From: Microbacterium salitolerans
GTDB lineage: Bacteria; Actinomycetota; Actinomycetes; Actinomycetales; Microbacteriaceae
Direction: 5' to 3'
DNA: 64,000 bases
Assembly: GCF_019720895.1 (NCBI RefSeq)
Contig: NZ_JAHKSH010000001.1
Span: 620,001-684,000, forward strand
Shown here: piece by piece, positions 2,231 through 28,582 of the stretch
How positions within the stretch are numbered: position 1 is the first letter of the stretch
Layout of the letters: every line of letters begins with the position of its first letter
The notes under the pieces: generated by a model
What the model was told of the DNA's origin: nothing
Database searches by the model: none
Seen by the model: the letters and a program-made list of their open reading frames with translations, nothing else
Made by a program: the position numbers and the translations under genes

Positions 2231-2372
2231 GCGTTCGGGCGACAGCGGGGATGCGAGCACTCCCGACGGCAGCGGATAGGACGCCGTAGGCTCGGCGCCG
2301 AACGCCGATTGCCACGTGAGAGAACGCCGAGAAGCATGCTCCGCGCGTACGTCGCGGTCGGGAGCGGGACGT

Positions 2373-3338: not shown

Positions 3339-3355
3339 CGCTCCTGAGCGCGACG

Positions 3356-5589: not shown

Positions 5590-6453
5590 ATGTCTCGCCA
5601 TCAAGAGTTCGTAGACGGACAGTTCGACCCAGCCCACAACTTCCAACACGAGGGAAACGCGACGAAGACTCTCGTCATCGCGTCTTCTCCCCGCTGTGGG
5701 AGTCACATGCTCGGACATCTCCTGCACGCGACGAACCAGCTGGGGCATCCCCTGGAGTACTTGCATCCGGTCAATTTTGCGCGTTGGAAGGAACTTTACG
5801 CGACGAGCGACGCGGGGGAGACGATTCGCCAGCTTATGCGGAACCGTACATCGCCGAGCGGTGTATTCAGTACGAAGATTCACTATCCCCAACTCGCGGC
5901 ATTCGGTGGGATCGCTGCTCTACGTGAGCACTTCCCCGACCCGCACGTTGTCCTCCTTCGACGTCGCGATTCCATCAAGCAAGCCGTTTCTCTCGCAATT
6001 GCCCGGCAAACTGGGAAATGGATCGGCGAGACGCCCTCCGTCGCTGATGTGCAGTACGACGCGCACGCCATCGATCGGGCGCTCGCTGACGTGATCCTTC
6101 AGACGGCCAATTGGCGGCGCGACGTCCTGCGCAGCGACCTTCCGGTCCTCGAACTCGACTTCGAGGACATCCTTGGACGTGAGGCGGAGGCCGTCGCCTC
6201 GATTGCCGCGTTCGCGGGAGTTGAAGTCCCGGCAGGTGAACTGCCAGCGGCGCCGAGCACACGTCGACAGGGGTCCAGCCTCAATGCGGAGTGGCGCGCG
6301 CGCTTCCTCGCTGACGTCGCACGATCCCCGTCCGACGGCACCAGCAGGTTTGAACTTGCGGACGGTGGCAGCGGGAGATCGACGAACCGAGGTCGTGCGC
6401 CCAAGCGCGCGGTCAAGCGACTGATCGGGCGAATCCAACGCGTCGGAAGATGA
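5590..6453 (+). CDS. Stf0-like sulfotransferase
   Basis: Predicted PAPS-dependent sulfotransferase, 287 residues. The 5'-phosphosulfate loop is ASSPRCGSHML at residues 31-41, followed by GHPLEYLHP. This is the arrangement seen in Stf0, the mycobacterial trehalose 2-sulfotransferase. The 3'-phosphate site is seen in LLRRRDSIKQAVSL. The last 40 residues are basic and Ser/Arg-rich, outside the core fold. A GGAGGTG site lies 11 nt upstream of the ATG. It stands alone, transcribed towards the pyruvyltransferase-like gene. Its acceptor is not known; a sugar residue of the local glycan or a glycolipid is likely. Confidence 0.82.
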   Translation: MSRHQEFVDGQFDPAHNFQHEGNATKTLVIASSPRCGSHMLGHLLHATNQLGHPLEYLHPVNFARWKELYATSDAGETIRQLMRNRTSPSGVFSTKIHYPQLAAFGGIAALREHFPDPHVVLLRRRDSIKQAVSLAIARQTGKWIGETPSVADVQYDAHAIDRALADVILQTANWRRDVLRSDLPVLELDFEDILGREAEAVASIAAFAGVEVPAGELPAAPSTRRQGSSLNAEWRARFLADVARSPSDGTSRFELADGGSGRSTNRGRAPKRAVKRLIGRIQRVGR

Positions 6454-6527
6454 CGGCGCGACGGAGTCGCCGTGACTTCTCCTGCTGAGACTCGACGTAT
6501 TCTCTCGGTGTGCCGAGCAGAGGCAGT

Positions 6528-8315
6528 CTAGGCTCGGCGGGCGAGGTACTCTGCAACGGCCATTCGAAGTGCTTCTTCAACTTCATCCAGCTTCTCGTCG
6601 CGGACGAACTCACGCGTTGCAAGCGAGTCCCAGTCAACCTGTCTGAGGTCAACGCCGACAGATGTCGGCTCCTGGACGCGTTCAAGGCCGGCGCCGAGTG
6701 AGTAGTCACGATATTTGATTCCGCCACCGTGCACAGCTGATTCGAGCCCGTCAAACGTGACCAGGGCGCAAGGAATCCCATAGCTGTGACACGCGATCAT
6801 CACGTGCATAGCGGTGGTAACAACGGCGTCATACTCGACGAGTGAAGCGAGAAAATCTCTGATCTGGTCGGGGTGTGACATGACGACGCTGAGCTCGTCC
6901 ATGCTGTCTGGAAGGACTACTGGGGCGCTTGCGTGAGTGAAATGCCGCACGAGGAGCGTGCGTCCGTTGGTCACATCGCGCTGAAGAGGCACGATCCTGC
7001 GCAGGAGGATCCCGGGATCGCCGAACGAATCGACTCGCGGACCGCCGCGATCTGATAGCAGTCGTGCAGTGATTGGACCCCGCAGCGAGATGTATCGCGC
7101 GCGAGGGTCGATCGCGAAATCCGGGCTGGCCGCGCCGGCCCCGGCGACGATCGAGTCGTGGGCTACGTATCGCATGATGGACCCGAGAGAGACCAAGTGC
7201 TCTCCGCGCGGACGCGTCTTGGGTGACTGGTATCGGATTCCGCGCCCGGTGAGCTCCTTGAGAATGAGCGGGCCGAGCCAGTCGCCGAAGTTTCCCGGGT
7301 AGGGGCGCGCGTGCCACATCAGCTCGAGCGGCGTCTCAGCGGGATTCGCAGTGGCGAGGGATTCAAAGGACTGGGTGACGTCACGGAGCGCTTTCTCGTC
7401 CGCAGTGGGGACCCAGTTGTTCTCTATGACTCTGAAGCGGTCCTGGGCAGCCCCACGATCGCCCCGTTCGGCCGCCGCCGTCAGCTCTTCGGCCAGCCGC
7501 GACCTCCGCTGGGTATCAGGTGCCTCGCCTCTCGGTCTCCAGACGGAGCTCAATTTCGCCGCACGACGTACAGCTCTGAACACCCGGCGGGACAGGGTAC
7601 GACGGATTGCTCCGACAACTTGTCGGCCAGGCACACGCGCCGCGGACAAGGCGGCCGGTGCGGATGGCGTTCCGCCTGCTGAGCCCGCGGCGTTCCCAGT
7701 CGATGCATTCATTGGAGCGCCGAACGAGATGAATGAGATCGGGTCAAGAGGATGGACGGACCGCCGACCAGCTTCCTGCGCTCGCGAGAGCGACTGATGC
7801 GTCAACCGCCCCGCGTGCGCTTCCCAAGCAAGGGTAAACGGGGTGTCTTGTGCGGGGGCTTTCGTCGTCGTGTGGTTCGCCCAGTTCGCCGCGTCAGAGA
7901 TGAACGCACGGGCTTGCGCTGTCGTGTTGACCCCGAAGAATCGCCAATCCCAGGAAAGCTGATCGGAGCGGCTGGCGGACACGCGCATCGGTCTCGCCTC
8001 TTGCGGAAAACCGACAAGATCGGCAGTGAATTCTGCGAGCGACGGCGGAAGTGCGAAGAGTCGACTTGCTGGGTCGATCCAGAAGACTCTGCTGTCGGGG
8101 AACTGCGTGCAGGCGCGTTCGACGAGTGCGACCTTCGCGTGAAGGAGGTCGACGGCAGACCCTGCGGGCACCTCTTCCACGACGTGAGCCAGCCCCAAGC
8201 GCGTCAGGTCCGACTTGAGTCGTTCCACCATCGTCGCATTCGCGGCCCCCGCCTCGTATGCGGTGCAGACGACGACCGCAGGTTGAGTTGGTGGCGCTTC
8301 CCCGCTCGTCGGCAT
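6528..8315 (-). CDS. Two-domain protein: unknown N-terminal domain plus polysaccharide pyruvyltransferase-like domain
   Basis: 595 residues. The C-terminal part (about 330-560) resembles polysaccharide pyruvyltransferases, which add a ketal-linked pyruvate to sugars: LMWHARPYPGNFGDWLGP, then GSIMRY, ISLRGPITA, FGDPGILL and VVTTAMHVMIACHSYGIPC. The N-terminal 200 residues (VVVCTAYEAG, VFWIDPASRLFAL) look like a separate nucleotide-sugar-transferase-like fold, joined by an Ala/Ser/Gly-rich linker. ATG 8315 is chosen because AAGGAA lies just upstream; a TTG 18 nt earlier lacks such a site. It is divergent from the flippase. It may add negative charge to the glycan, as sulfation would. Confidence 0.7.
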   Translation of the reverse strand: MPTSGEAPPTQPAVVVCTAYEAGAANATMVERLKSDLTRLGLAHVVEEVPAGSAVDLLHAKVALVERACTQFPDSRVFWIDPASRLFALPPSLAEFTADLVGFPQEARPMRVSASRSDQLSWDWRFFGVNTTAQARAFISDAANWANHTTTKAPAQDTPFTLAWEAHAGRLTHQSLSRAQEAGRRSVHPLDPISFISFGAPMNASTGNAAGSAGGTPSAPAALSAARVPGRQVVGAIRRTLSRRVFRAVRRAAKLSSVWRPRGEAPDTQRRSRLAEELTAAAERGDRGAAQDRFRVIENNWVPTADEKALRDVTQSFESLATANPAETPLELMWHARPYPGNFGDWLGPLILKELTGRGIRYQSPKTRPRGEHLVSLGSIMRYVAHDSIVAGAGAASPDFAIDPRARYISLRGPITARLLSDRGGPRVDSFGDPGILLRRIVPLQRDVTNGRTLLVRHFTHASAPVVLPDSMDELSVVMSHPDQIRDFLASLVEYDAVVTTAMHVMIACHSYGIPCALVTFDGLESAVHGGGIKYRDYSLGAGLERVQEPTSVGVDLRQVDWDSLATREFVRDEKLDEVEEALRMAVAEYLARRA

Positions 8316-8690
8316 ACGTTTCCTTCCGATCAAGTTGCGCCCGCACGTGACGGAGGTCGGGAGCCTGCTTCACCCCCGGTTCCTGCGGGGACGTCCGATC
8401 TCAGCGTAGTATGCGCTCAGGTGGAGGCCCTTATGAGCGCAACGCCTCGCCGCGGTGCTTTGGGGGTGTTGCTCCCAGTCGCTTCCGGCAGACGCCTGCG
8501 CCGGGAGATCGACCTGTCCGGGCTCACAGGGCGCATGCAATAAGATCCCCGAGTCGGTGGACCGCGAAGCCGGCAGAATCGTGGCGGCAGAGCCTAGGAC
8601 CTGTTCGAAACAGGGGAACTTCTAGGGCATCGATAAGGGCATCATGGATCTGACGAAGACCAACGCGAGGCGACTGTTCGCAGACGTCTC
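8316..8690. other. 375-bp divergent intergenic region before the flippase
   Basis: Gap between the pyruvyltransferase-like gene and the flippase. It holds a TAGTAT -10-like box at 8407-8412, a small ORF at 8433-8543, a 6-bp hairpin (CCTGTT-cga-AACAGG, 8600-8614) and a 28-codon ORF (8644-8730) that ends on a TTG candidate start of the flippase. No further gene was seen. Confidence 0.6.
8433..8543 (+). CDS. Possible 36-residue small ORF upstream of the flippase
   Basis: A short reading frame with a plausible GGTGGAGG ribosome-binding site and a TAGTAT box about 20 nt upstream. The peptide is Arg-rich with a short hydrophobic stretch (GALGVLLPVA). No family was recognised. It could be a leader peptide, a small protein or the decayed start of a lost gene. 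Confidence 0.3.
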   Translation: MSATPRRGALGVLLPVASGRRLRREIDLSGLTGRMQ

Positions 8691-10205
8691 GTGGTTGACG
8701 ATCGGCGCGACTCGCACGGTGAACTTTTGACGAGCGGGAAGGGTCTGAAACCCGACGATCTGCGAAGCCACGTGCTTCGAGGCATCGGGTGGACGGTCAT
8801 CGAGAAGTGGGGCATCCGCCTCGTCTCGCTTGGCGTCTTCGTGATCCTGCTTCGACAGCTTGATGCCGAAGATTTCGGCGTCGCCTCGCTCACGACGTCG
8901 GTCACGATGATTCTGTTCGCGTTCGTCGACGCAGGCTTCTCGAAGGCACTCGTCCAGAGAAAAGAGCTCGGCCCAGATGACGCGACGACGGCCTTCTGGA
9001 CGTCGTTCGGGATCGCTGTCGTCGTGTATGCGATCCTCTTCTTCACGTCGCCACTCATCGCCTCGCTCACGGGGATGGCTGAGCTCGAAGCGATGCTTCG
9101 TGTGCTCGGCCTGAGCATGTTCGTGATTGCTCTGAGCAGCGTCCCGAGTGCACTGCTCGAGCGCGACATGAACTTCCGCTCTCTTGGGCTCCGAAGCATC
9201 TTCGGGACAGTAGTCGGCGCAATCGTCGCGGTGCCCATGGCCCTCTTCGGTGCGGGAGCATGGGCGCTCATCGCGCAGACGCTCGCAACGATGGTCGCCG
9301 GCATGATTGCGCTGTGGTTCAGCACCGACTGGCGCCCGCGATTTCGGTACTCGATCCCCGCCTTGCGGGGGATGATGTCGTTCGGTCTGAGTTCGCTCGG
9401 CTTGGAACTGGTCAATCGCACGCAGCAGAATATCGACAAGATCCTGGTGAATGTGCTTTTGGGGCCAGCAGCTGGTGGGGTCTACTACGTCGCGCAGCGT
9501 GCAGTGAAGCTCGTACTCGAATTGCTATCGAGCGTGATCGGCCGAATCGGTCTGACGACCTTCTCCAAGCTGCAGGACGACTTCGAACGACTGAGTCGTG
9601 CCTTCCTGCAGCTGACCTTCGCGGCGGGGGCGATCGCGATACCAGTTCTCTGTGTGATGGCGGGTCTGGCGGACATCATCCTGCCCTACATCGCCGGCGA
9701 GGGATGGGGAGACGCCGTCGTGGTCATGCAGATCCTCGCTCTGAGCAATTCCTTGTTCGTGATCTGTCGATTCGACAAGCAAGCGCTTCTCGGAGCAGGC
9801 GCGCCGGGGCGCGCGTTCAGCCTCGGCCTCATGGAAAGCGTCGTCGGGATCGCGCTTCTTGTGATCGCGGCCCCATTCGGGCTCGTCGCTGTTGCCTGCG
9901 CTCGCGTGTCGCGGACGCTCGTCACCTGGCCGTATCGCCTCTATCTGCTCAAGCGCTACGCGGGAGTGCGGGTGGGTGAGTACATCTTCAACACGGTCAT
10001 GCTGTTGCTCGCGGTGGCCGCTCCGCTTGGTCTCCTCGCGCTCGCGTCGCTGACACCGTGGCGTGATACGAGCCCGGCGATGTGGACGTTCGCCGTGCCC
10101 ATGGCGGTCGTGATGGTCGCCGCCTACTACGGCGTCCTGTGGTTGATTTGCGGTCGACAGAATCGCAAAGTCATTCGCCGAACGTTCGCGCGCGCTCGTC
10201 GATGA
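8691..10205 (+). CDS. Wzx-type polysaccharide flippase (MOP superfamily)
   Basis: 504 residues with some 12-14 hydrophobic segments across the whole length. The start GWTVIEKWGIRLVSLGVFVILLRQL followed by DFGVASL is typical of WzxC/polysaccharide-biosynthesis flippases, which move undecaprenyl-diphosphate-linked oligosaccharide to the outer membrane face. The tail is short and basic. The start is uncertain: GTG 8691 has no clear ribosome-binding site. TTG 8727 (GGTGAACT upstream, overlapping the stop of a 28-codon ORF) would shorten it by 12 residues. It is the only flippase in the window and sits among the sulfotransferases, so it probably exports their product. Confidence 0.88.
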   Translation: MVDDRRDSHGELLTSGKGLKPDDLRSHVLRGIGWTVIEKWGIRLVSLGVFVILLRQLDAEDFGVASLTTSVTMILFAFVDAGFSKALVQRKELGPDDATTAFWTSFGIAVVVYAILFFTSPLIASLTGMAELEAMLRVLGLSMFVIALSSVPSALLERDMNFRSLGLRSIFGTVVGAIVAVPMALFGAGAWALIAQTLATMVAGMIALWFSTDWRPRFRYSIPALRGMMSFGLSSLGLELVNRTQQNIDKILVNVLLGPAAGGVYYVAQRAVKLVLELLSSVIGRIGLTTFSKLQDDFERLSRAFLQLTFAAGAIAIPVLCVMAGLADIILPYIAGEGWGDAVVVMQILALSNSLFVICRFDKQALLGAGAPGRAFSLGLMESVVGIALLVIAAPFGLVAVACARVSRTLVTWPYRLYLLKRYAGVRVGEYIFNTVMLLLAVAAPLGLLALASLTPWRDTSPAMWTFAVPMAVVMVAAYYGVLWLICGRQNRKVIRRTFARARR

Positions 10206-10357
10206 TCATGCGCAGCGCCATGCGAGTGTGTCGCTTCTCGTCGAACGGCCCCGTCCGCTCGAGCGGATAGAGTGAGGAGCTGGGCTCTGCGGCCGGTCAG
10301 CTGAATGCGGTCGTATTCCCCACGAGACAGCGCGAGCTTGACGGAGAGAGACATCAG

Positions 10358-11251
10358 ATGGCGAGCAGCGACCCCTGGGCGGACAAGAATCTGATCTTCG
10401 TCGGTGGGATGCACCGCAGCGGGACGACGATTCTCGCCGACATCCTGAGCAGCGCCGATGATGCCGCCGGGCTCGACGGCTCCGGCGCCCACATGGGCGA
10501 GGGGCAGTTCTTGCAGGATGTCTATCCCGTGGACAACTCCTTCGGCGGGGTCACGCGCTGGGCCTTCGACCCGCGAACGCATATGACAGAAGTCGATGCT
10601 CAGCCCGACATGGCGCGCCGTCTTTGGGACGCGTGGTCTCCCTGGTGGGGAGATGACGCCCAGTTCCTCGTCGAGAAGTCGCCGCTCAACATCGTGCGTA
10701 CGCGCTTCCTCGCGGAGGTGTTTCCGCAGGCGAAGTTCGTCATCGTCACGCGCCACCCGATCGCCCAGTCTCTCGCGGTGCACAAGTGGGCGCGCACGGT
10801 GCGCGAACGCGCGGGTGACCAGTTCAGTCGTCTGGTCGAGCTGTGGTTGGCCGCGCACCGCACGGCGCAGCGCGACATCGACAGGCTCGACAACGTGCGC
10901 GTCGTTCGCTTCGAGCACCTCGTCACTCAGCCTAGAGGCGAGCTCGACCGGCTTTCAGAGTTCCTCGGAGTTCGCCTCGGCGATGAGGCGGTAAGCCGCC
11001 TGGATGCAGGCGTGCTCGAACACTATGCGACGATCTGGGACAGGGCGCGACGGGGGAGGGGAATGCGGTACCCAGGGCGCGGCCTCAGGACCCTGCGTCG
11101 TCGGGCCATCTCGACGGTCACTTTTCCGTACGAGGCTCGTCTCATCGAGAAGCAGGCGGAAGCTGTCGCGCAGTTCGGGTACGACATCCACGACCTCAGG
11201 AGCGCGCGCACTTGGGCTGACGCGACGTCGACGAACGGGACGCGCCAGTGA
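10358..11251 (+). CDS. PAPS-type sulfotransferase (first of an inverted paralogous pair)
   Basis: 297 residues. The 5'-phosphosulfate loop GGMHRSGTT is at residues 16-24 and the 3'-phosphate signature is in VTRHPIAQSLAV. It shares EGQFLQDVYP, GGVTRW and VEKSPLNIVRTRFL with the minus-strand gene at 13117-13992, so the two are clear paralogues. The C-terminal region is basic. GGAGAGAG lies upstream of the ATG and a TAGAGT box at 10268-10273 may be its -10. The stop overlaps the GTG of the next gene (GTGA), so the two are translationally coupled. The acceptor sugar is unknown. Confidence 0.85.
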   Translation: MASSDPWADKNLIFVGGMHRSGTTILADILSSADDAAGLDGSGAHMGEGQFLQDVYPVDNSFGGVTRWAFDPRTHMTEVDAQPDMARRLWDAWSPWWGDDAQFLVEKSPLNIVRTRFLAEVFPQAKFVIVTRHPIAQSLAVHKWARTVRERAGDQFSRLVELWLAAHRTAQRDIDRLDNVRVVRFEHLVTQPRGELDRLSEFLGVRLGDEAVSRLDAGVLEHYATIWDRARRGRGMRYPGRGLRTLRRRAISTVTFPYEARLIEKQAEAVAQFGYDIHDLRSARTWADATSTNGTRQ

Positions 11252-13125
11252 GGCCTACGGTGAGGATGCTCCGTCCGCCGGCTGGGGCGGTCGCCGAGGG
11301 CGGGATTCTTCGTTTCTCCCGACTCATCGCCGAAGGGATGACGGAGACCGAGCTCGTCGATGTCGTGACGTCGGACATGGATATGCCTGTCGACCCGAAG
11401 CAGACCGAAAGCGTCGTCATGCAGTACGGCGCCGGGTTGCAGTTCGGGTCGAAGGAGTACGTCGCGGCGGTCAAGGCGTTGCCAGCTTCGGCGACGGTGA
11501 CCGTCATGCTGCACGATCTCGGGGGTGCGGCCTATCCCGGCCCTCTGCAGACGACTGTCCGCATCGCGCGTGGGGCGATCCGCAGACTCCTTGGCCGGGG
11601 CGGATCGGTTGCGACGCCGTGGCACCGGCGACGAGCATGGTGCCTCTTGCAGAAGGTCGCAACGACCTTCGTGGTCTGCTACCCGCATGAGAGGGACCGG
11701 CTCTCGCCACGCCTCCAAGAGCGTTGTGTCGTCGTCGACCACCCCACGCCGCCCCGAGCGGCGCTGCCGGATCGCGCCGCGGCTCGTATGGAGCTCGACG
11801 TGGCCGACGCCCACGTGGTCACGCTGCTGGGCTTCTTGAGCCCGCGAAAGGGAGTCCGCGAAGCGTTGGACCTCATCGGCGCGCTCGGCGACGATGCCGT
11901 CCTGGTGCTCGCGGGAGCGCCGGTGGTGGAGTTCGCAGAAGAACTGGACCGGATGATCGCGTCCACGAGGGGGCGCGTCATCCACACAGGCTGGTTGGAG
12001 ACCGCAGAGCAGCGCAAGTGGATCGCGGCAACAGACGTGGCGATCGCGCCCTTCCGAGATGCCTCGGCGTCTGGCTCGATGTTGGAGTGGCTCGTGCAGG
12101 GCATCCCGGTCGTCACGTCAGCGACGCCCCTCGCCGAGCAGCTGCGTCAGCGGACGGACGGGCTGCTCACAACCTACGACGACGAGGAAGGTCTTCAACG
12201 CAGTGTTCGCGCTGCGCTGAGCGGCGCTGACGAGCATCGGAGAGCGAAGCCCCTCGACGTCCCTGCGGCTCGAGTCGGCGAACGCGTCATCGCCGAAGCG
12301 GTGCGCAATCGGGGCGACCTGCACGAGCGAATCTTCCTCGTCGGATGCCCGCGATCGGGCACCACGCTTCTGCAGAGCATGCTTGCTGCGCACCCGGGGT
12401 TGGTGAGCTTCCCGGAAACCCACGCGTTCCGCAACCGAGCGCGGGCGAACGATGCGGAAGCGGTCAAGGCGTTCTCCGCGGCGCTTTCCGATGAGGTCCG
12501 CGCTGTGATCGAACCGGAGCTGGACGCGGTCGACAGCGCTTACGTCCCCCCGCAGACTCTGGTTCATGCGGGGGATCTGACCGTGATGCGCACCGCTGCC
12601 GATGGCTGGCTCGAGAAGACTCCGGATCATCTTCTGTTTGCTGAGCAGATCGCGAGCCAGGTTCCCGGAAGCAGGTTCGTCCACATCGTCCGTGATCCGG
12701 TCGATGTCGTGAGTTCGCTCCGACGTCTGAGCACTGAGCATCCGACGGACTGGACACGCAAGTTTCAGGATCTCGATGCCGGAATCAACCGCTGGACGCG
12801 CAGCGGACGGGCGCACAAGAAGTGGGTCGGCGACCCGGCGCACTTCTTCGTCTCGTACGAGACCCTCGTCGCATCGCCTGAATCCGTCTTGCGTACGCTC
12901 TGCTCCTGGTTGGAACTCGAGTACGACCCGGAGATGACGAGCGGGTTCGCGCGGAGCGCCGAGTCGCTCATCGCCGGCCACGAGCCGTGGAAAGCGAAGA
13001 ACACCCGAGAACTCACCGCTGAGCGGAAGTCGGTCCTCACGGACGCCGAGGAAGAGGCCGTGCGGCAGGCGTGCCACCCGCTGTGGCGTGAGATCCTCGT
13101 CGCGACTCCTTCTCTGTCAAAGTGA
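11248..13125 (+). CDS. Fused glycosyltransferase (GT4-like)-sulfotransferase
   Basis: 625 residues, one unbroken frame with two enzymes. Residues 1 to about 350 resemble a GT4 glycosyltransferase: VTLLGFLSPRKGV opens the nucleotide-sugar half, followed by HTGWLETAEQRKWIAATDVAIAPF and a GSMLEWLVQGIPVV acceptor-loop motif. From about 361, IFLVGCPRSGTTLLQSML is a PAPS-binding loop, with the 3'-phosphate signature in IVRDPVDVVSSLRRL. The simple reading is that one protein adds a sugar and sulfates it or a neighbour. It starts at a GTG overlapping the upstream sulfotransferase stop. Its last 9 bp overlap the convergent gene at 13117. Confidence 0.8.
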   Translation: MRPTVRMLRPPAGAVAEGGILRFSRLIAEGMTETELVDVVTSDMDMPVDPKQTESVVMQYGAGLQFGSKEYVAAVKALPASATVTVMLHDLGGAAYPGPLQTTVRIARGAIRRLLGRGGSVATPWHRRRAWCLLQKVATTFVVCYPHERDRLSPRLQERCVVVDHPTPPRAALPDRAAARMELDVADAHVVTLLGFLSPRKGVREALDLIGALGDDAVLVLAGAPVVEFAEELDRMIASTRGRVIHTGWLETAEQRKWIAATDVAIAPFRDASASGSMLEWLVQGIPVVTSATPLAEQLRQRTDGLLTTYDDEEGLQRSVRAALSGADEHRRAKPLDVPAARVGERVIAEAVRNRGDLHERIFLVGCPRSGTTLLQSMLAAHPGLVSFPETHAFRNRARANDAEAVKAFSAALSDEVRAVIEPELDAVDSAYVPPQTLVHAGDLTVMRTAADGWLEKTPDHLLFAEQIASQVPGSRFVHIVRDPVDVVSSLRRLSTEHPTDWTRKFQDLDAGINRWTRSGRAHKKWVGDPAHFFVSYETLVASPESVLRTLCSWLELEYDPEMTSGFARSAESLIAGHEPWKAKNTRELTAERKSVLTDAEEEAVRQACHPLWREILVATPSLSK

Positions 13126-13992: not shown

Positions 13993-14192
13993 TGCGCTCC
14001 ACGGAAGGGAAGGCGCGTGCGTGGCTGCACCACGGCACGCGGGAGGGACTCTGGCACTTTATCGCGCCGCTGGCCGCTGTCCGCCTCGGGGGTGATGCGC
14101 TCATCCAGTAGAGTGTCAGGGTTGTCCTGGTGCGGAATTCATGCGTCGGGCGCCTCGCACGCACATGCTCTACCCCAGCTGGGAGGTCTGAG

Positions 14193-15071
14193 GTGGTGAC
14201 ACCCAGCGCGTTCATCGTCGGCGTCAACAAGAGCGGCACGACGGCTGTCTTCAACGCCTTGAGTCGGCAGCCGAACGTCTGCGCGTCGACGACGAAGGAG
14301 ACGCACTTCTTCGACCCCCTGAAGTACGGGGACGCGCTTCCTGCGCTCGCCGAGTACGAGAAGTTCTTCGAGCCTCGTCTGTCTGACGACGTCGTGATCG
14401 AGGCGACTCCTGGGTACTTCTACGGTGGCCGGGTGCTTGCAGAGAAGCTCCGCGAGGTGTCACCCGAGGGCAAGGCCGCGATCATTCTGCGTGAGCCCGG
14501 AGCACGCGCGTTCTCCTGGTATCGCTTCGCCCGCACCCGTCTGCTGCTGCCGCAGAACATCACGTTCGACGAGTACCTCGATCGTTGTGAGCCGCTCGGG
14601 CTGAGTCCCGAGCAGGACAAGGACCAGGTCGGCTGGCGCGGTCTCAGCGGAGGCGCCTACGCGCATTGGCTGCCCTCGTGGCAGAGTGTCTTCGGCGAGG
14701 ACCTGCTCGTCATGTACAGCGACGACTTCCGGGCGCGGCCCGAAGAGGCGCTCGTGCGTATCGGCGCCCACTTGGGCATCGACGTCGTCGAGGCCGAGGA
14801 CCGCCAGAGCAATGTGTCGGTCGACATCAGCAACGCGAAGCTTCAGCGCGTCGCTCTCGCTCTCAACCGCGCCGGCGAGAGAATCTGGCGAAGGCACCCT
14901 CGACTCAAGGACCGGCTGCTCGACGTGTACTACCGGCTCAACTCGCGCAAGCAGCAGGAGCGCATGAGCGATGATGCCCGTCGCCGCCTCGATGCGCACT
15001 TCGCAGCCTCGCTCGCCGAGTTGCGCGAGATGCTTCCCGATGTTCCCGAGACCTGGGGGCGCGCAGCATGA
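14193..15071 (+). CDS. PAPS-type sulfotransferase
   Basis: 292 residues. IVGVNKSGTTAVFNAL at residues 8-23 is the PAPS loop, followed by KETHFFD, as in heparan-sulfate-type sulfotransferase folds. ILREPGARAFSWY carries the 3'-phosphate-binding Arg and Ser. GTG 14193 (or the next codon, GTG 14196) is chosen for the GGGAGG site at 14181-14186; the frame is open further upstream but without such a site. It begins a five-gene run with overlapping stops and starts (to 19994), so it is probably co-expressed with the next sulfotransferase and three glycosyltransferase genes. Confidence 0.84.
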   Translation: MVTPSAFIVGVNKSGTTAVFNALSRQPNVCASTTKETHFFDPLKYGDALPALAEYEKFFEPRLSDDVVIEATPGYFYGGRVLAEKLREVSPEGKAAIILREPGARAFSWYRFARTRLLLPQNITFDEYLDRCEPLGLSPEQDKDQVGWRGLSGGAYAHWLPSWQSVFGEDLLVMYSDDFRARPEEALVRIGAHLGIDVVEAEDRQSNVSVDISNAKLQRVALALNRAGERIWRRHPRLKDRLLDVYYRLNSRKQQERMSDDARRRLDAHFAASLAELREMLPDVPETWGRAA

Positions 15072-15997
15072 CGCGTCCGCCTGACTTCATCCTCGCCGGC
15101 GCTCAGCGCGCAGGGTCGACCGCGCTGGCAGAGGCGCTCGCGGAGCACCCCGATGTCTCGATCACCGACCCCAAGGAGCCGAGCTACTTTGCGACGCTCT
15201 TCGGCTCACTGGACTATTCGGGGCCCGGCGACCCGTGGTTCGCATCGCAGAACGTCGCAGACTGGGACGCCTACCTCGAATTGTGCGATTCGGGTGCAGC
15301 GGTGTCCGGCGAAGCGTCCGTCATGTACCTCGCCATCCCGGGGACAGCGGCTGCGATCCGCGAGCGCCTGCCGGACGTGAAGATCGTGATGGTGCTGCGC
15401 GACCCATTGATCCGGGCGCGCTCAGCTCATGCGTATCTTCGCGTCAAAGGGCGAGAGACAGAGAAGAGCTTTGCCACGGCCCTCGCGCACGAGCACCGCC
15501 GCCGCGAGACCGGCTACGGTCCGATGTGGTGGTTCGAAGGCGCGAGCGACTACGCACCGGGGCTCGAAGAATACATCGCGGCATTCGGGCGCGAGCAGGT
15601 CTTCGTCACGACGAACGAAGAGCTGAAAGCCGATCCGGCACGAGTGCTCGCTGACGTCAGCGCGTTCCTCGGAGTCTCGGAGTCGAGTGCGCCGGTCGAG
15701 TACCTGTCGTCGAACGCGATCAACTCGGGTGGTGTGCCGAAAAGCGAGCTGCTCACACGGATCCTGTATCCCCCGGACAGCGTGCGCCGGTTCATCCGCG
15801 GCCTGGCACCCGAGAAGCTGCGTGACATCGTGCGTTCCGCACGGAAGAAGTCGACGACGCAGGCGACTCCCCACGAGGACGAGCTCAGCGCGGAGGTCAT
15901 CGCGAGGTTCCATGAGAGCGCGCGTCGGACGGGCGATGTGCTCGGGCGTGACATGAGCGATGTGTGGCCGTCGGCGAGGGGCGAAAATGCGGAGTGA
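15068..15997 (+). CDS. PAPS-type sulfotransferase
   Basis: 309 residues. The PAPS loop is FILAGAQRAGSTALAEAL (near residues 7-24), followed by KEPSYF. The 3'-phosphate signature is VLRDPLIRARSAHAYL. The order resembles the preceding gene (loop, K-E-x-x-x-F, R-x-P), so they may be distant paralogues, but overall similarity is low. The ATG overlaps the previous stop (ATGA). Its 3' end overlaps the next gene by 11 bp. It is the sixth sulfotransferase domain counted from the left. Confidence 0.84.
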   Translation: MTRPPDFILAGAQRAGSTALAEALAEHPDVSITDPKEPSYFATLFGSLDYSGPGDPWFASQNVADWDAYLELCDSGAAVSGEASVMYLAIPGTAAAIRERLPDVKIVMVLRDPLIRARSAHAYLRVKGRETEKSFATALAHEHRRRETGYGPMWWFEGASDYAPGLEEYIAAFGREQVFVTTNEELKADPARVLADVSAFLGVSESSAPVEYLSSNAINSGGVPKSELLTRILYPPDSVRRFIRGLAPEKLRDIVRSARKKSTTQATPHEDELSAEVIARFHESARRTGDVLGRDMSDVWPSARGENAE

Positions 15998-16934
15998 CGT
16001 GACCCTCTTCGTCGCGAGTACCGGTGGGCACCTGAGTGAACTGATCCAGCTTGCCTCCCGCATCGAGGTGGTTCCCGCGAAGCGAGTGTGGGTCACATTC
16101 GATACCCCGCAGAGTCGATCGATGCTCGAGGGCGAGAACGTGGAGTTCGTGTCGTTCATGGCACCGCGAGAGTGGGGCGCTCTCGCAAGAAATTTCGGCC
16201 CGGCCCTTCGGATTCTACGCAGGCATCGACCAACGCGGGTGTTCAGTACCGGATCCGGCATCGCATTGTCGTTTCTGCCGCTCGCACGGGTGCTCGGTGC
16301 GAAACCGACATATATTGAGTCGGCTGCGCGGACTGAGGGCCCAAGTGCGACGGGCAAGATTCTCGCGAAGTTCCCCGGCATCAAGACGTATTGCCAGTAC
16401 ACGCACTGGGCGCGAGGCGCGTGGGAGTTCGGGTACTCAGTATTCGACGACTTCCCTGAGAAGGACGGCGAACCGTCCGACGGAGTCGAGCGCCCGCGTG
16501 TGTTCGTGCAGGTCGGCACGCTTGACTATCCGTTCGGGAGGCTTGTCGAACGTGTCGCGTCGCAGCTCCCGCCCGACGCAGAGGTGACGTGGCAGCTCGG
16601 CGCGACGCCAGCGCCGGCGGGTCTTCCCGGGCGCCACTTCGACTTCGCTCCGGCCGCCGAGCTGGCAGATGCGATTGAGCGCGCGACCGTCGTGATCTCT
16701 CATGCTGGCTGCGGCAGTGCGCTGATGTCTCTCAATCACGGCGTGCGGCCTGTGCTCGTGCCGCGGTGGTCTGCGAACGGTGAGCACGTCGATGACCACC
16801 AGGTCGAACTCGCATCAGAGCTCGCGGAACGGGGAGTTGCCACCTACTCCGAGGTCGAGGACATGGACACACGGATACTGAGGGCGGACCACCGGTTCAC
16901 AAGGCGCCAGGACAGGCACGGGGACGTCACATGA
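15987..16934 (+). CDS. Fused Alg14/PssD-Alg13/PssE-type glycosyltransferase
   Basis: 315 residues. Residues 5-150 resemble the Alg14/PssD membrane-anchoring half (FVASTGGHLSELIQL, FSTGSGIALSFLPLA, YIESAAR). Residues about 170-300 resemble the Alg13/PssE catalytic half of GT28 type (FVQVGTLDYPFGRLVE, VVISHAGCGSALMSL, VLVPRW). These are usually two genes whose products work as a pair; here they are one frame. Such enzymes usually add the second sugar to a lipid-linked intermediate on the inner membrane face. ATG 15987 follows GAGGGG at about 7-nt spacing and overlaps the upstream gene by 11 bp. Confidence 0.82.
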   Translation: MRSDVTLFVASTGGHLSELIQLASRIEVVPAKRVWVTFDTPQSRSMLEGENVEFVSFMAPREWGALARNFGPALRILRRHRPTRVFSTGSGIALSFLPLARVLGAKPTYIESAARTEGPSATGKILAKFPGIKTYCQYTHWARGAWEFGYSVFDDFPEKDGEPSDGVERPRVFVQVGTLDYPFGRLVERVASQLPPDAEVTWQLGATPAPAGLPGRHFDFAPAAELADAIERATVVISHAGCGSALMSLNHGVRPVLVPRWSANGEHVDDHQVELASELAERGVATYSEVEDMDTRILRADHRFTRRQDRHGDVT

Positions 16935-17947
16935 CGAGGGTCATTCAGCTTGGAAACTTCGGCGACGACGGCGGCGGCATCTCATCGGTGCTGCGAGAGT
17001 TCGAATCGTGGGAATGGCCGACGAGTCGTCACACCTTCGTCGACACGTACGCGACGGATCCACGTCTCTGGGGGGCGCGCAGACTCCTCGCCGCCGCTTC
17101 GACGCTCGTCCGACGCAGGAAATCGTTTGACGTCGCGCACATCCATCTGTCGGAAAAGGGATCTTTCGTGCGAGAGGGGCTCCTCGTCCGTCTTGCTCAG
17201 GCGCTCGGGCTCCGTGTCGTGGTCACCATGCACGGGGCGACATTCGTCGAGTTCGCCAATCAATACTCCTGGCTGGCTCGTGGCGTGCTGAAGCACGCGA
17301 ATGCGATCGCGTGTCTGACTGATCCGACAGTCAATGAGCTTCAGGCGCTGGGCGTCACAAACGTCACACTCATCCCGAACGCCGTCTCTGCCGATCAGCT
17401 CACCGCCGACGAGACGCCGATGGCCGACAGAATGATCACGGTCTTCGTCGGCGAGGTGTCACGGCGCAAGGGCGTCGATGTGCTCCTCGACGCCTGGAGG
17501 AGCGTCTCCGCGACCTATCCCGGCGCACGACTCGAGGTGTACGGCGGTCCGGTCGACGTCGATGTCCCGAGCGGCGGCGCAATCGCGACGCATGGTCGTC
17601 GGCCGCGCGACGAGGTGCGTCAGGCAGTCCGATCGGCTCGCCTGCTCGTTCTGCCCAGTCGAGCAGAGGCCTTCCCGATGGCGATTCTCGAGGCGATGGC
17701 GGCAGGAATCCCGGTCGTCGCGACCGACGTCGGACAGGTGCGAGACATGATCGACGACGATGAGCTCGTCGTGCCGGCGGAGGACGCGGAGCAGCTCGCC
17801 CAGGCGATGGCATCGCTGTACGCTGACGGCGCGCGTGCAGAGGCGGCGGCCGTCCGGAACGAGGCACGGTACGCCCGTCTGTTTTCGCCTCGCGTCGTCG
17901 CGGAGAAGTACGAGGTGCTCTACGCGGCGGGAGCGGCGCATGTATGA
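16931..17947 (+). CDS. GT4 family glycosyltransferase
   Basis: 338 residues, a GT-B enzyme of the GT4 family. N-terminal features are GGGISSVLREF and VTMHGATFVEFANQY. The C-terminal donor half has FVGEVSRRKGVDVLLDA, then EAFPMAILEAMAAGIPVVATDVG with the conserved E-x7-E type arrangement, and LVVPAEDAEQLAQAM. The sugar is not predictable. The ATG overlaps the previous stop (ATGA) and the next gene starts inside its last codons, so it is part of the coupled run 14193-19994. Confidence 0.88.
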   Translation: MTRVIQLGNFGDDGGGISSVLREFESWEWPTSRHTFVDTYATDPRLWGARRLLAAASTLVRRRKSFDVAHIHLSEKGSFVREGLLVRLAQALGLRVVVTMHGATFVEFANQYSWLARGVLKHANAIACLTDPTVNELQALGVTNVTLIPNAVSADQLTADETPMADRMITVFVGEVSRRKGVDVLLDAWRSVSATYPGARLEVYGGPVDVDVPSGGAIATHGRRPRDEVRQAVRSARLLVLPSRAEAFPMAILEAMAAGIPVVATDVGQVRDMIDDDELVVPAEDAEQLAQAMASLYADGARAEAAAVRNEARYARLFSPRVVAEKYEVLYAAGAAHV

Positions 17948-19994
17948 GGTTCTGAATCGGACCACCGACGAGGGTGCGACATTCGATGTGTCGATCGTCC
18001 TCCCTGTCTTCAATGCCGAGGGGGAGGCGCTTGCAGAACGGCTTGCCGCGTTGGTCGACGGTGCAGGCACGAACATCGAGCTGATCGTCGTCGATGACGC
18101 ATCTCGTGATGACACACGAGCGCAGCTGCTTGCGCAGCTCGACGGTGTGCCGAACACCACAGTTCTCGGTGCGATCGAGAACGGCGGGGTCGCCGCGGCG
18201 CGGAACGTGGCTGTGACGCACGCCGCCGGCGAGTACCTGTGGTTCGTCGACTGGGACGATGAGTGGTTCCCGCACACGCTCTCGCGACTACTCGAAGTCG
18301 CGCGTGAGGAAGATGCCGACGTGGTGGTCTGCCAGGCCGATGCGATCGAAGCCGGACGCGTGCGTCGCATCGACGGGCTCGAAGAAGCGGTCACGCTGGG
18401 TGGTGCGGAGGCGTTCGATCTGCTCTTGCAGGGACGGATCGCCGGGTATCTCTGGTCGAAGCTGATTCGGCGCGAGTTGCTCCGCGCGGATCCGTTCCCG
18501 TTGCTGTCGTATCAGTCAGATCTCGGCGGGTTCGCTCCGGCGCTCGCGCGCGCATCGCGGGTCGTGAATCTGCCAGAGGTGCTATATCACCACCTCATCC
18601 GTGATGGATCGATCAGCCATTCCTCGACGACTGATGTCACGTGCAAGCTGGAGTGTCGAGACATCCTGACTCGCACTGTCGATGGACTCCCGCCGAGTCA
18701 GCGACGGGAGCGATTGCTCCGTCGATTCGTCTTCCGTCGTGTCTATCTCGGGGCAGTCAACATGGCCGTTCGTCTCGCGAAAGTTCCCTCGGACGCCGCC
18801 GACGTGATCACCGTGATCCGCGAGGAATACTCTTGGGAAGAGCTGCGGCGTCATTCGAGAATCGATGCGTCCACTGCTTCTCGTTTGGCGCTCGTGAAGG
18901 CGATGGGCCCGCGGTTCGCGTCGCTCTCGGGACTAGCGCGAAGGCTCTTGAGACGAACGAGCACGAGCCAGAAGCCGGAACCGCAGAGGCAGCCTGAGAG
19001 GGTACGCGTTCTTCACGTCGCACCTCCGTCAGATGAGACGACGTCTTTCGTGGATCTGATCACGGTCGGTGCCGCGACCGATGGCGTCGTGCACCGGACT
19101 TTCGCATGGGGCCCGGCCTTGCGCCTTGACTTCGATGTCCTTCATATCCACTGGCCCGAACGCATGATCCGCGGACGCACGGTTCTCCACCGCATCGGAA
19201 AACGGTGGGCGACGCGACTTCTTCTCCTTCGTATGAGTCGGGGCAAGTTGCCGATTGTACGCACGCTGCACAACATCGCTCCTCACGAGAGTGGCCCGCG
19301 CGGTGAAGACTTGCTCCTTCGAAGGGTCGACGAGGCGACGACGACATTCGTGGCACTGAATCGACGAACTCCGGTTCCCGACTCCCGCGCGGCGACATCG
19401 ATGGTGATTCCCCACCCGCACTACCGCGGGTTCCACCCCACGGATCCGAATGAGAAACCGATAGCGGGCCGACTTCTCTACTTCGGCCTCATCCGGGACT
19501 ACAAGGGCATCGACGCACTTATTGACGCCTTTGGCGACCTCAACAGCAACGATGTCTCTCTGCGGATCTTGGGAGCGCCTACTCCTCGCTGGCGGGATGT
19601 CATCGAACGAGCCAGCACGTCCGACCCTCGCATCTCGGCGCATCTCGAGTATGTCTCCGATGTCGTCCTCGCCGAGGAAATCCGCCAGGCGCAGGCGGTC
19701 GTCTTTCCTTACCGGACGATGCACAATTCGGGCGCGACGTTCGCGGCTCTCTCGCAAGGGCGAGCCGTTCTCGTCCCGAGTAACGACGTCAACGCGGATC
19801 TCGCGGCCGAGGTCGGAGAATCCTGGGTCGTGACTTTCGACGGCGAGGTCGTCGCTGACGACCTGCGAACGCTCCTCAGCAACGGCGGGGTGTCACAAGG
19901 TCATGAGGCACCTTCGTTGAATGCCCGGGATCCTCATACGGTGTCGCGCAGCTACGTGGACGCTTACCGGGAGGCACTGGCGCGGGTGAGCTGA
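17940..19994 (+). CDS. Fused GT2-GT4 glycosyltransferase
   Basis: 684 residues with two glycosyltransferase domains. Residues about 17-300 are GT2: VSIVLPVFNAEGEAL, LIVVDDASRDDT and a DWDDEW metal site near residue 100. After an Arg/Gln-rich linker (near 345) a GT4 domain follows to the end: LHIHWPE, VRTLHNIAPHE, LLYFGLIRDYKGIDALIDAF near 509 and VVFPYRTMHNSGATFAALSQGRAV. It probably adds two sugars in sequence. ATG 17940 lies 8 nt inside the upstream gene's end; the frame is open further left but only inside that gene. It is the last gene of the coupled run. Confidence 0.85.
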   Translation: MYEVLNRTTDEGATFDVSIVLPVFNAEGEALAERLAALVDGAGTNIELIVVDDASRDDTRAQLLAQLDGVPNTTVLGAIENGGVAAARNVAVTHAAGEYLWFVDWDDEWFPHTLSRLLEVAREEDADVVVCQADAIEAGRVRRIDGLEEAVTLGGAEAFDLLLQGRIAGYLWSKLIRRELLRADPFPLLSYQSDLGGFAPALARASRVVNLPEVLYHHLIRDGSISHSSTTDVTCKLECRDILTRTVDGLPPSQRRERLLRRFVFRRVYLGAVNMAVRLAKVPSDAADVITVIREEYSWEELRRHSRIDASTASRLALVKAMGPRFASLSGLARRLLRRTSTSQKPEPQRQPERVRVLHVAPPSDETTSFVDLITVGAATDGVVHRTFAWGPALRLDFDVLHIHWPERMIRGRTVLHRIGKRWATRLLLLRMSRGKLPIVRTLHNIAPHESGPRGEDLLLRRVDEATTTFVALNRRTPVPDSRAATSMVIPHPHYRGFHPTDPNEKPIAGRLLYFGLIRDYKGIDALIDAFGDLNSNDVSLRILGAPTPRWRDVIERASTSDPRISAHLEYVSDVVLAEEIRQAQAVVFPYRTMHNSGATFAALSQGRAVLVPSNDVNADLAAEVGESWVVTFDGEVVADDLRTLLSNGGVSQGHEAPSLNARDPHTVSRSYVDAYREALARVS

Positions 19995-20457
19995 GTACGG
20001 GCATTTTCCGTGGGATCGGCAGAACGGCGATGGGCATCGATGACGCCGGGCGAATACATGAAGCGCTACTTCTTGATGATGCCCCGCAGGTTCCGACCGG
20101 ATTCAGATCATCCGGGGGCGTATTGCCTGCCTGCCACACCGCGGAACATGGCGAAGAGATCGCACGGACGTATCATCGCCGTCGCGTCAGACAGATGTCT
20201 GTAGCGGGAGCCAAGCCTAGAAGGTGTATTTCTACGCCTCGGTCGGTCGTATCGAGCCACACGTCAGATCGGTAACCCTCAGGGGGCGATGTTCGGCAAC
20301 CGAACGCTGATCGACGGGGATGAGGCCATGGGCGCCGCCTGTTGTCCGGTGGCTGCGGAGCCGCCAGCCCGTCAGACGCGAACGACACCCTCCGCGGAGG
20401 TGGGTCAGTCGGTCATCAACCGGTGCGAGCTGGACACCAGGTGCACGTTCCGCACCG
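19995..20457. other. 463-bp intergenic region rich in short palindromes
   Basis: No gene is supported here. Visible items are CAGACA-ga-TGTCTG (20188-20201), GTTCGG-caa-CCGAAC (20291-20305), the 12-bp palindrome CCTCCGCGGAGG (20389-20400) and CGGTGCG/CGCACCG (20421-20427 and 20451-20457). The last lies directly after the stop of the minus-strand sulfotransferase and may be its terminator, though it lacks a T run. Confidence 0.5.
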
Positions 20458-21396
20458 TCATACGTCGTACCCCAGCGCGGCGAGATCGATTCCGAGAAGC
20501 TCGGAGGTACGGCGATTGCTGTCGGCATAGAAACTGCCGACATGCTCCCGGACGGTCCGAGTCTGGCGGGCGGCAAGGCGGGTATTGAGCGAGACAGGAG
20601 TCATACGTCGGAAAGTCGGACCTACGCGCCAGAACACCTGGTTCAGCGAGTGGAAGCCGAGAAGTCCGCGCTCGTTGAGCTCCGTGCGAGTCAGGAGGGA
20701 GTTCGCGACGCGCCGAGTTCCCTGTAACGTCATCGGGCGTCTCCGATTTCTCCCCTTTGGGGCATCCGGAAGTGTGCTCAGGTCGGAAGCTCCAGAGAAG
20801 CTGGCGACCCGCTGCGCGAATCCGAGTGGGTCCGACTTCATCTGCTCGAAGGGCAGTACAAGGAGGTTCTCCGGGCCGAAGACCTCGCGATAGAACGTGA
20901 TCAAAGTATCGAAGCGGAGAATACTGAGGCGGAACTCGGGTTTGCGCCCGAGATAAGGCTTGTGTCCACGGAGGAAACGATTGAGCGACTGATGCCCGCC
21001 ATCAGAGATGTATTGGCTGTACATCGACTCAAGATGGGACGTCTGCTCCCGGATCACGAGGAGGACGCGGGGGGTCGTGAATGTGTGGGCGAGGCGGTGG
21101 GCGATTACGGTACGGTCGAAACTCCCTCCCGGAGGGTAGCCCGAAAGACGCTCGTGGGAGAGAACAGGGACCAGCCCTCTTTCGTCGGCGGCAGAGATCT
21201 CCGCCGCGAACGCGGTCCGCGCATGCTGCAAGTCGTAGTCGAGGTCGGGGGTGCGAGCAAGGAGGTCGAGTGCCTCCGGCATCCCCATCGTGTGGGCGAG
21301 ATCGTGATACCCAGCCTCCTCTCGACGGAAGAGTGCTGCTTGCAACCATGTCGTCCCGGTCTTGTGCAGACCAACATGGATTAGCGGAGACGTCAT
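20458..21396 (-). CDS. PAPS-type sulfotransferase
   Basis: 312 residues, the seventh sulfotransferase domain. LIHVGLHKTGTTWLQAALF (about residues 5-22) is a classic PAPS loop; VLSHERLSGYPPGG and LVIREQTSHLESMYSQYI follow, the latter with the 3'-phosphate Arg and Ser. This pattern is common among bacterial sulfotransferases of glycan clusters. ATG 21396 is chosen because GAGGA lies 4-5 nt upstream; the frame opens 18 codons earlier with no such site. It follows the Wzy-like gene on the same strand after 158 bp. Confidence 0.84.
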   Translation of the reverse strand: MTSPLIHVGLHKTGTTWLQAALFRREEAGYHDLAHTMGMPEALDLLARTPDLDYDLQHARTAFAAEISAADERGLVPVLSHERLSGYPPGGSFDRTVIAHRLAHTFTTPRVLLVIREQTSHLESMYSQYISDGGHQSLNRFLRGHKPYLGRKPEFRLSILRFDTLITFYREVFGPENLLVLPFEQMKSDPLGFAQRVASFSGASDLSTLPDAPKGRNRRRPMTLQGTRRVANSLLTRTELNERGLLGFHSLNQVFWRVGPTFRRMTPVSLNTRLAARQTRTVREHVGSFYADSNRRTSELLGIDLAALGYDV

Positions 21397-21554
21397 GAAT
21401 TCCTCAGGGACTGGGGCACCGCGGCGCCGGTGTAGAGGGGGAGTCGGCACGAGCCGGGGTCACACCAAGACTTCACGTTAGCAAGCGAAGGAAGTTCGTT
21501 GCATCGGGACCGGTCGGGCTCGTCGAGTGGGCTGAGCATGCAGCGACACGGCGA

Positions 21555-26508: not shown

Positions 26509-26541
26509 CGTGACATCCTCTCGCACGCGAGATGGGAAGCG

Positions 26542-28362: not shown

Positions 28363-28368
28363 TAGCAC

Positions 28369-28374
28369 ATTGTA
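28369..28374 (-). promoter_or_regulatory. Possible -10 box (TACAAT) giving a leaderless DUF4012 transcript
   Basis: On the minus strand TACAAT lies 6 nt before ATG 28362, and no ribosome-binding site is present. That spacing would start the mRNA at or next to the ATG. No clear -35 box was found. Confidence 0.4.
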
Positions 28375-28582
28375 TGTGCGGCGACGCCGATTCACCTGAC
28401 CAGCGAGGGTGTGCCAGCTGGCCGGCGATGGTGAGCCGCCTGACTGGTGTTGATGAGCCAGCCGAGCGGAAGGCCCCGGCCTCGATGCGGCCAGAGATCG
28501 CGCGCGAGCCTCATCCGCGGAATGCCGCTGGGGTATGCTTCAGGCGGCCGACGAGCGGCGATATATACGGGGAGGCTGGCGG

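Follow-up and report, generated by a model that had tools for sequence, protein, structure and literature searches.

Seven Sulfotransferase Domains and a Linked PAPS Module in a Predicted Sulfated-Polysaccharide Locus of Microbacterium salitolerans

Introduction

In Cobetia marina KMM 1449, for which a sulfated capsule repeat unit has been established, the polysaccharide cluster contains cysN/C, cysD, cysQ and a sulfate permease gene together with sulfotransferase genes (PMC11766843). The capsule cluster of Vibrio sp. KMM 8419, likewise with an established sulfated structure, carries second copies of cysC, cysN and cysD and three sulfotransferase genes, and the pairing of genes for the synthesis of 3'-phosphoadenosine 5'-phosphosulfate (PAPS) with sulfotransferases was termed a hallmark of such clusters (PMC11641403). 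The xss cluster of Synechocystis is of the Wzx/Wzy type with sulfotransferases, and its eight glycosyltransferases and two sulfotransferases roughly match the eight sugars and two sulfates of the product, synechan (PMC8205485). The nearest actinomycete system, wps-1 of Actinoplanes missouriensis, is a Wzx/Wzy cluster with sulfotransferases, for which a sulfated polymer was proposed (PMC13390465). In the present study, we analyzed a 64,000-nt stretch of Microbacterium salitolerans DNA, referred to as the window (assembly GCF_019720895.1, contig NZ_JAHKSH010000001.1, positions 620,001-684,000, forward strand), in which seven sulfotransferase domains (ST1-ST7, numbered by position) lie in an island of polysaccharide genes adjoining a PAPS-making module. 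We consider it likely, as predicted from the genes, that the product of this locus is a sulfated polysaccharide, probably with pyruvyl and acyl groups as well, which is exported via a Wzx/Wzy-type route and is either surface-bound or secreted.

The pathway type is already known; what is unusual is the host and the dose, namely seven sulfotransferase domains in a Microbacterium. The Cobetia cluster is Gram-negative and exports through an ABC transporter, in contrast to the Wzx-type island of the Gram-positive Microbacterium (PMC11766843). The Vibrio cluster, also Gram-negative and ABC-dependent, spans about 80 genes with its three sulfotransferases spread across regions (PMC11641403). Synechan comes from a cyanobacterium with two sulfotransferases, and PAPS is unmentioned in the text searched (PMC8205485). 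The wps-1 cluster also has two, the text searched mentions none of PAPS, cysD and cysN, and the polymer is a proposal without chemistry (PMC13390465). Within the genus, sulphate is mentioned in the anionic exopolysaccharide of the marine Microbacterium aurantiacum FSW-25 (PMC9409974), for which the passages available give no genes (PMC9409974, PMC7024282).

The synechan (2021, PMC8205485) and Actinoplanes (2026, PMC13390465) papers state that bacterial sulfated polysaccharides are exclusive to cyanobacteria, which is contradicted by the sulfated capsules of Vibrio (PMC11641403) and Cobetia (PMC11766843). The original prediction made for this DNA, that sulfated extracellular glycans are little described in this bacterial group, fits the literature found, namely the Actinoplanes proposal of 2026 (PMC13390465) and the one mention of sulphate in Microbacterium (PMC9409974). 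In a search largely outside subscription journals, we found no report of such an island in Microbacterium or of one with seven domains. A sulfated surface polysaccharide would represent a chemistry rarely described in the group of this Gram-positive host, and a set of seven distinct bacterial sulfotransferases, including two that resemble heparan sulfate enzymes, could help make defined sulfated glycans.

Seven Sulfotransferase Domains in One Island

All seven domains that had been proposed by reading the DNA scored above the curated cut-off of a Pfam sulfotransferase family, and the coordinates proposed for them were correct. ST1 (5590-6453, + strand) is a Stf0-type sulfotransferase (PF09037, 68.3 bits; PF13469, 34.7 bits), nearest to Stf0 itself (PDB 1tex, E 6e-8). 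ST2 (10358-11251, +; PF13469, 92.2 bits) and its paralogue ST4 (13117-13992, -; PF13469, 78.3 bits) form one family, distantly like tyrosine sulfotransferases. ST3 is fused to a glycosyltransferase of family 4 (GT4) in a single frame of 625 residues (GT-ST3; 11248-13125, +), in which Pfam places the GT4 domain at residues 189-324 (PF13692, 49.5 bits) and the sulfotransferase at residues 362-561 (PF13469, 117.2 bits, the strongest of the seven). The solved chains nearest to ST3 are polyketide-synthase sulfotransferases (4gox, and 4gbm of CurM) and tyrosine sulfotransferases. ST5 (14193-15071, +) was scanned in its longest reading, from 14130 to 15071 (PF13469, 31.6 bits; PF00685, 27.7 bits), and is nearest to heparan sulfate 3-O-sulfotransferases (1t8t, E 7e-11), while ST6 (15068-15997, +; PF00685, 36.0 bits; PF13469, 35.9 bits) is nearest to 3rnl (E 1e-47) and then to heparan sulfate enzymes. 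ST7 (20458-21396, -, for which 21396 is a sensible start; scanned as the open reading frame (ORF) 20458-21450) is divergent and the weakest, with 25.5 bits against a PF00685 cut-off of 22. It gave no significant solved relative (best E 0.065), and its structure prediction, from an alignment of two sequences, was too poor to use (mean predicted local distance difference test score (pLDDT) 43.5).

The 5'-phosphosulfate loop that the original prediction saw in each domain is readable in all seven. Its claim of a 3'-phosphate motif in each held for the Arg, present in 7/7, and in part for the Ser, which is retained in ST1 (as read from the alignment to Stf0), ST3, ST5, ST6 and ST7 and replaced by Ala in ST2 and ST4. 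The reading frames of all seven are open. ST2 and ST4 are 40-41% identical, and all other pairs of domains are 22-31% identical. Scans of the whole genome (3.46 Mb) gave four matches to PF00685, six to PF13469 and one to PF09037, all of them inside the island, and none to PF03567. Because the genome-wide matches to the first three families are confined to the island, we conclude that the seven domains are not a product of chance. ST7 was not listed by these scans at E<=0.001, and an equally divergent sulfotransferase elsewhere could escape them. With GT-ST3 as the query, a plasmid collection gave 19 records, none of which reached 60% identity or covered more than 80% of the protein's length.

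The island stretch also holds seven Pfam-supported glycosyltransferase domains, a flippase and a priming transferase. The claim of a Wzx-type flippase proved firm: the Wzx/MOP-type protein at 8691-10205 (+) scores 229.6 bits with PF13440 (and 211.9 bits with NF007773, below the cut-off of that model). Together with the priming sugar-phosphate transferase at 28535-30178 (+; PF02397, 228.5 bits), it supplies two components expected of a Wzx/Wzy-dependent cluster. Sulfotransferase and glycosyltransferase genes are tightly packed. Stop and start codons overlap at ST2/GT-ST3 (GTGA) and ST5/ST6 (ATGA), two glycosyltransferase genes at 16931 likewise share such an overlap (GTGA or ATGA), and ST6 overlaps the following glycosyltransferase gene, provided that the latter starts at 15987. 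The overlaps between sulfotransferase genes and their neighbours suggest coupled translation. Since ST3 is fused to a GT4 domain and sulfotransferase and glycosyltransferase genes overlap, the layout further suggests that sulfation is tied to the addition of sugars.

Some of the relatives named above would also suit a different role, in which their main acceptor is a glycolipid or a small metabolite, like mycobacterial trehalose-2-sulfate, and the polysaccharide locus is incidental. ST1 falls in the Stf0 Pfam family, and ST3 and the ST2/ST4 pair are nearest to enzymes of polyketide synthases or of tyrosine sulfation. However, ST1 was rejected as a trehalose 2-sulfotransferase, since it scored 56.3 bits where the equivalog model requires 400; ST5 and ST6 lead to 3rnl and the heparan sulfate enzymes; ST3 shares its frame with a glycosyltransferase; and ST5, ST6 and ST7 are kept with glycan genes in a second genome, G148 (see below). 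We therefore regard such a role as improbable.

A PAPS Module Adjoining the Island

The window opens with cysD (6-917, +; NF003587, 447 bits; TIGR02039, 429 bits, cut-off 396.6) and cysN (920-2170, +; TIGR02034, 577 bits, cut-off 336), which encode subunits 2 and 1 of ATP sulfurylase. The 20 kb to the left, outside the window (L011), contain cysC, encoding an adenosine 5'-phosphosulfate (APS) kinase whose N-terminal part is long, together with genes for a CysQ-like phosphatase, a TauE permease and an Rrf2 regulator, and further for an MFS transporter, a PF00884 sulfatase and a Wzy_C-domain protein (L011:9786-11384). The genome has no other strong APS kinase match, the second best having an E value of 9.6e-4. 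The CysQ-like protein is identified by its family and position, its 107.6 bits with TIGR01331 lying below the cut-off of 228.8. These genes, cysC-cysQ-cysD-cysN with their neighbours, are a PAPS-making and PAP (3'-phosphoadenosine 5'-phosphate)-clearing module adjoining the island, which the original prediction had not remarked. Sulfotransferases and PAPS synthesis genes thus lie together here, as in the hallmark described for sulfated-polysaccharide clusters (PMC11641403).

The sulfatase next to the module (L011:12122-13909) has a copy of 76% identity near the module of genome G229 (L083:6191-7936) and gave no match in the stretches of G148 that were searched. It carries the sequence CxPxR, which we take to be the mark of a type I sulfatase. 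Its role may be to trim the predicted sulfated glycan or to recycle it.

Co-occurrence of APS Kinase and Sulfotransferases in the Genus

We searched 296 Microbacterium genomes with the Pfam profiles PF13469, PF00685, PF03567 and APS kinase, and 17 of them with PF09037. The Pfam cut-off for APS kinase (21.1 bits) was exceeded in 200 of the 296 genomes, as other P-loop proteins score 21-34 bits. We therefore drew the line for a full-strength kinase in the gap between 34.4 bits (E 4e-8), the next best score, and 175.8 bits, leaving 16 genomes (>=175.8 bits, E<=1.0e-51). Matches to PF13469 were found in 11 genomes and to PF00685 in ten, all among those 11; PF03567 added one more, G094, giving 12 genomes with a Pfam sulfotransferase. 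PF09037 was present in G000 and G148. No other of the 296 genomes reached the number of sulfotransferase matches of the window's genome in the Pfam searches.

Kinase and Pfam sulfotransferase occurred together in 11 genomes, out of 12 with a sulfotransferase and 16 with a kinase (Fisher P 1.6e-15, shared ancestry ignored). With PF13469 alone, ten of the 11 genomes had the kinase (P 7e-14, with the same reservation). The sulfotransferase genome lacking a kinase match, G109, is 83% complete, and its sulfotransferase lies on a 12.6-kb contig starting inside cysN. In eight of the ten genomes with PF13469 and the kinase, the kinase lies 0.4-14 kb from the nearest sulfotransferase on one contig. In G229, each sits at the end of its own contig, both contigs carrying cysD, and in G290 about 300 kb separate the two. 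Because the PAPS module is linked to the island and the co-occurrence extends across the genus, there is good support for the sulfation of an exported glycan, better than in the original prediction, while its proposal of heavy sulfation, with each enzyme taking a different position, stays a prediction. The tie between APS kinase and sulfotransferases, which extends to genomes with no reductase match, could serve as a simple marker of sulfation in genomes of Microbacterium, with M. excoecariae and M. commune as candidate species.

Relation to Sulfate Assimilation

A further explanation for the module is that cysDN and cysC serve assimilation and stand beside the glycan locus by chance. The CysD of the module is the only one found in the M. 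salitolerans genome (the search did not extend to ATP sulfurylase of the Sat type), so it is probably shared; unless a Sat-type enzyme exists, the module probably feeds both sulfation and assimilation and is not exclusive to sulfation. However, CysH and sulfite reductase are encoded elsewhere in this genome, on contig C15, while the module lies on C5, and neither stands beside cysDN as in an assimilatory operon. The CysH carries the cysteines CC...GCxxC, presumably the mark of an APS reductase. APS reductases do not need PAPS.

We compared matches to PF01507, which covers CysD and CysH, in 15 of the 16 kinase-bearing genomes and in 16 hand-picked, non-random genomes without a full-strength kinase. 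In G196, G232 and G288, each listed as 100% complete and having module and sulfotransferases, the single PF01507 protein is at the cysD position of the module, which leaves no CysH match at E<=0.001; the pathway there can therefore hardly serve assimilation. G036 has two cysD genes, one beside cysH and one in the module, and G005, G032 and G034 have a cysH-cysD pair and no full-strength APS kinase match. These patterns indicate that APS kinase in Microbacterium tracks sulfotransferases better than assimilation. The idea that the kinase serves assimilation was accordingly dropped, given the survey of 296 genomes and the PF01507 comparison, and a chance placement of assimilatory genes appears very improbable. 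Among the 16 hand-picked genomes, 12 gave no PF01507 match, one a weak match (E 2.7e-8) and three an adjacent cysH-cysD; the 12 may depend on reduced sulfur.

Predicted Pathway and Degree of Sulfation

In the pathway that we propose, CysD and CysN would make APS, CysC would convert it to PAPS, the CysQ-like phosphatase would clear the by-product PAP, and the TauE-type permease may import sulfate. In the cytoplasm, a lipid-linked repeat would arise through the work of the priming transferase and some seven glycosyltransferase domains, and up to seven sulfotransferase domains would sulfate it ahead of flipping and polymerization. We infer this cytoplasmic timing, as well as the polymer itself, which positions accept sulfate and how heavily it is sulfated. 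If the gene-to-product ratio of synechan is a guide, the priming transferase with seven glycosyltransferase domains, set against seven sulfotransferases, would point to at most about 0.7-1 sulfate per sugar.

Several observations weigh against a sulfated Wzx/Wzy-type polysaccharide. Five of the 16 kinase genomes gave no match to PF13469, PF00685, PF03567 or PF09037. In one of them, G043, an ST7-like protein in the same region was found afterwards, by its motif and a self-built, post hoc profile; in G201, G142, G026 and G179, no sulfotransferase was found in the stretches fetched. Near the modules of G142 and G026 (L077 and L079), no sulfotransferase or polysaccharide gene was recognized, and the neighbours looked housekeeping-like by eye. 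In addition, the motifs of ST2 (RHPIAQSLA) and ST4 (RHPITQALA) have Ala eight residues after the Arg, where Ser is normal. The putative Wzy-type polymerase (21555-23282, -), which the original prediction had named and which is plausible from its approximately ten hydrophobic segments, matched no Pfam or NCBIfam model, and the structure predicted for it from an alignment of seven sequences was too poor to use (mean pLDDT 44.0). The single CysD discussed above counts on the same side, as does microbactan, an exopolysaccharide of Microbacterium that was called non-ionic (PMC3794815).

At the position of the 3'-phosphate Ser, an alignment of six members of the ST2/ST4 family has Ala in five and Ser in one. 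A weaker form of our prediction, compatible with it, is that the glycan is sulfated but several domains are redundant or inactive, resulting in light sulfation with one to three groups per repeat; we give this version an even chance. ST2 and ST4, as 40% identical paralogues with an altered motif, could share one acceptor position, and some Microbacterium genomes carry just one sulfotransferase match. In Synechocystis, the loss of one of two sulfotransferases had no substantial effect on bloom formation or on the amount of polymer (PMC8205485). On the other hand, all seven frames are open, and the low identity of the pairs other than ST2/ST4 argues against simple redundancy. At the other extreme, the locus might be a Gram-positive "heparin-like" factory, in which seven non-redundant sulfotransferases bring a defined repeat to roughly one sulfate per sugar. 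Its PAPS would come from a module that moves together with the glycan locus between species of Microbacterium, and the island would belong to a widespread class of actinobacterial multi-sulfotransferase islands; we put this forward tentatively, as the whole of it is rather doubtful.

Related Islands within and beyond the Genus

In G148, a largely syntenic island carries four sulfotransferases. The flippase is 68% identical, ST5 74%, ST6 76% and ST7 65% over its length; two glycosyltransferases show 62% and 53%, the two-domain glycosyltransferase 51% and the putative polymerase, which adjoins ST7 there, 60-61%. The G148 island also holds the module, further glycosyltransferases, a DUF4012 protein and the priming transferase (78%), in a broadly shared order. 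Its Stf0-type gene is only 28% identical and is located after the flippase, rather than before it as in the window. ST2, GT-ST3 and ST4 had no match in the G148 island and look like a later addition in the window's genome or a loss in G148.

Beyond the genus, we used one sulfotransferase subfamily, the ST2/ST4 family (six sequences), as the query. It gave 237 relatives, of which the best 80 were kept; these belong to Promicromonospora, Myceligenerans, Demequina, Phycicoccus, cyanobacteria and others. Sulfotransferase-like stretches were counted at the 80 loci with self-built profiles, up to 10 kb on each side, after stretches below 40 bits had been dropped. The counts, which are lower bounds per island and may include some false short partial matches, were six at one locus, five at four, four at five, three at 17, two at 27 and one at 26. 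Genes of the module were also matched at L107, L131, L135, L147, L163 and L166 and at the Microbacterium loci L090 and L168. Multi-sulfotransferase glycan islands thus appear to be a broader class, with the present island at its upper end. Two Demequina loci, L126 and L127, have five tandem sulfotransferase-like stretches within about 4 kb, the fifth being short and weak, with glycosyltransferase and flippase matches. Two of the ten long frames scanned from other loci fuse an N-terminal sulfotransferase to a C-terminal glycosyltransferase of family 2 (GT2), one in a Lapillicoccus metagenome-assembled genome (L107:3982-5919) and one in Phycicoccus endophyticus (L119:12010-13911).

Other Genes of the Island and Its Surroundings

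A membrane acyltransferase for sugar acylation (2316-4303, +) scores 114.9 bits with PF01757 for 2316-3338, where the frame stops early; an apparent continuation in another frame (ORF 3020-4303) points to a broken gene, a sequencing or assembly error or a frameshift. It is followed by a possible GT-A type glycosyltransferase (4408-5463, +), recognized by eye only, with no Pfam or NCBIfam match, and, beyond ST1, by a protein with a polysaccharide pyruvyl transferase-like C-terminal domain (6528-8333, -; PF04230, 32.7 bits, cut-off 25.3). Downstream of ST6 lie a glycosyltransferase with a GT28 C-terminal domain, PssD/PssE- and WelK-like (15987-16934, +; PF04101, 43.9 bits; NF046028, 126.9 bits, below cut-off), for which 15987 is a proposed start, the listed ORF beginning at 15960; a GT4 glycosyltransferase (16931-17947, +; PF13692, 107 bits); and a two-domain glycosyltransferase, GT2 plus GT1/4 (17940-19994, +; PF00535, 95.3 bits; PF13692, 32.3 bits), with an uncertain true start and a listed ORF from 17760. 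Beyond the putative polymerase are a GT4 glycosyltransferase (23373-24350, -; PF00534, 67 bits, scanned as ORF 23373-25568) and a second membrane acyltransferase (24353-25402, -; PF01757, 73 bits, scanned as ORF 24353-26482), both with approximate starts, another GT4 glycosyltransferase (25405-26526, -; PF00534, 71.3 bits) and a DUF4012 protein (26542-28395, -; PF13196, 144.1 bits). At the end of the island, the priming transferase is directly adjacent to a second PF02397 protein (30028-31638, +; 223 bits), whose listed start overlaps the preceding gene, so that the pair spans 28535-31638.

The GC content at third codon positions is approximately 0.68-0.84 for genes of the island that lie between 2316 and 23282, as compared with 0.95 in cysD, 0.97 in cysN and 0.90-0.91 in the priming transferases. 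A lowered value is usual for exchanged surface-polysaccharide genes. Rfam gave nothing at gathering scores across the window. Directly after the island, a helix-turn-helix gene and an AbiEii-like nucleotidyltransferase gene (31724-32895) are arranged like an AbiE-type toxin-antitoxin or phage defence pair, and a DUF222 protein with a weak HNH match (32999-34516) also adjoins the island.

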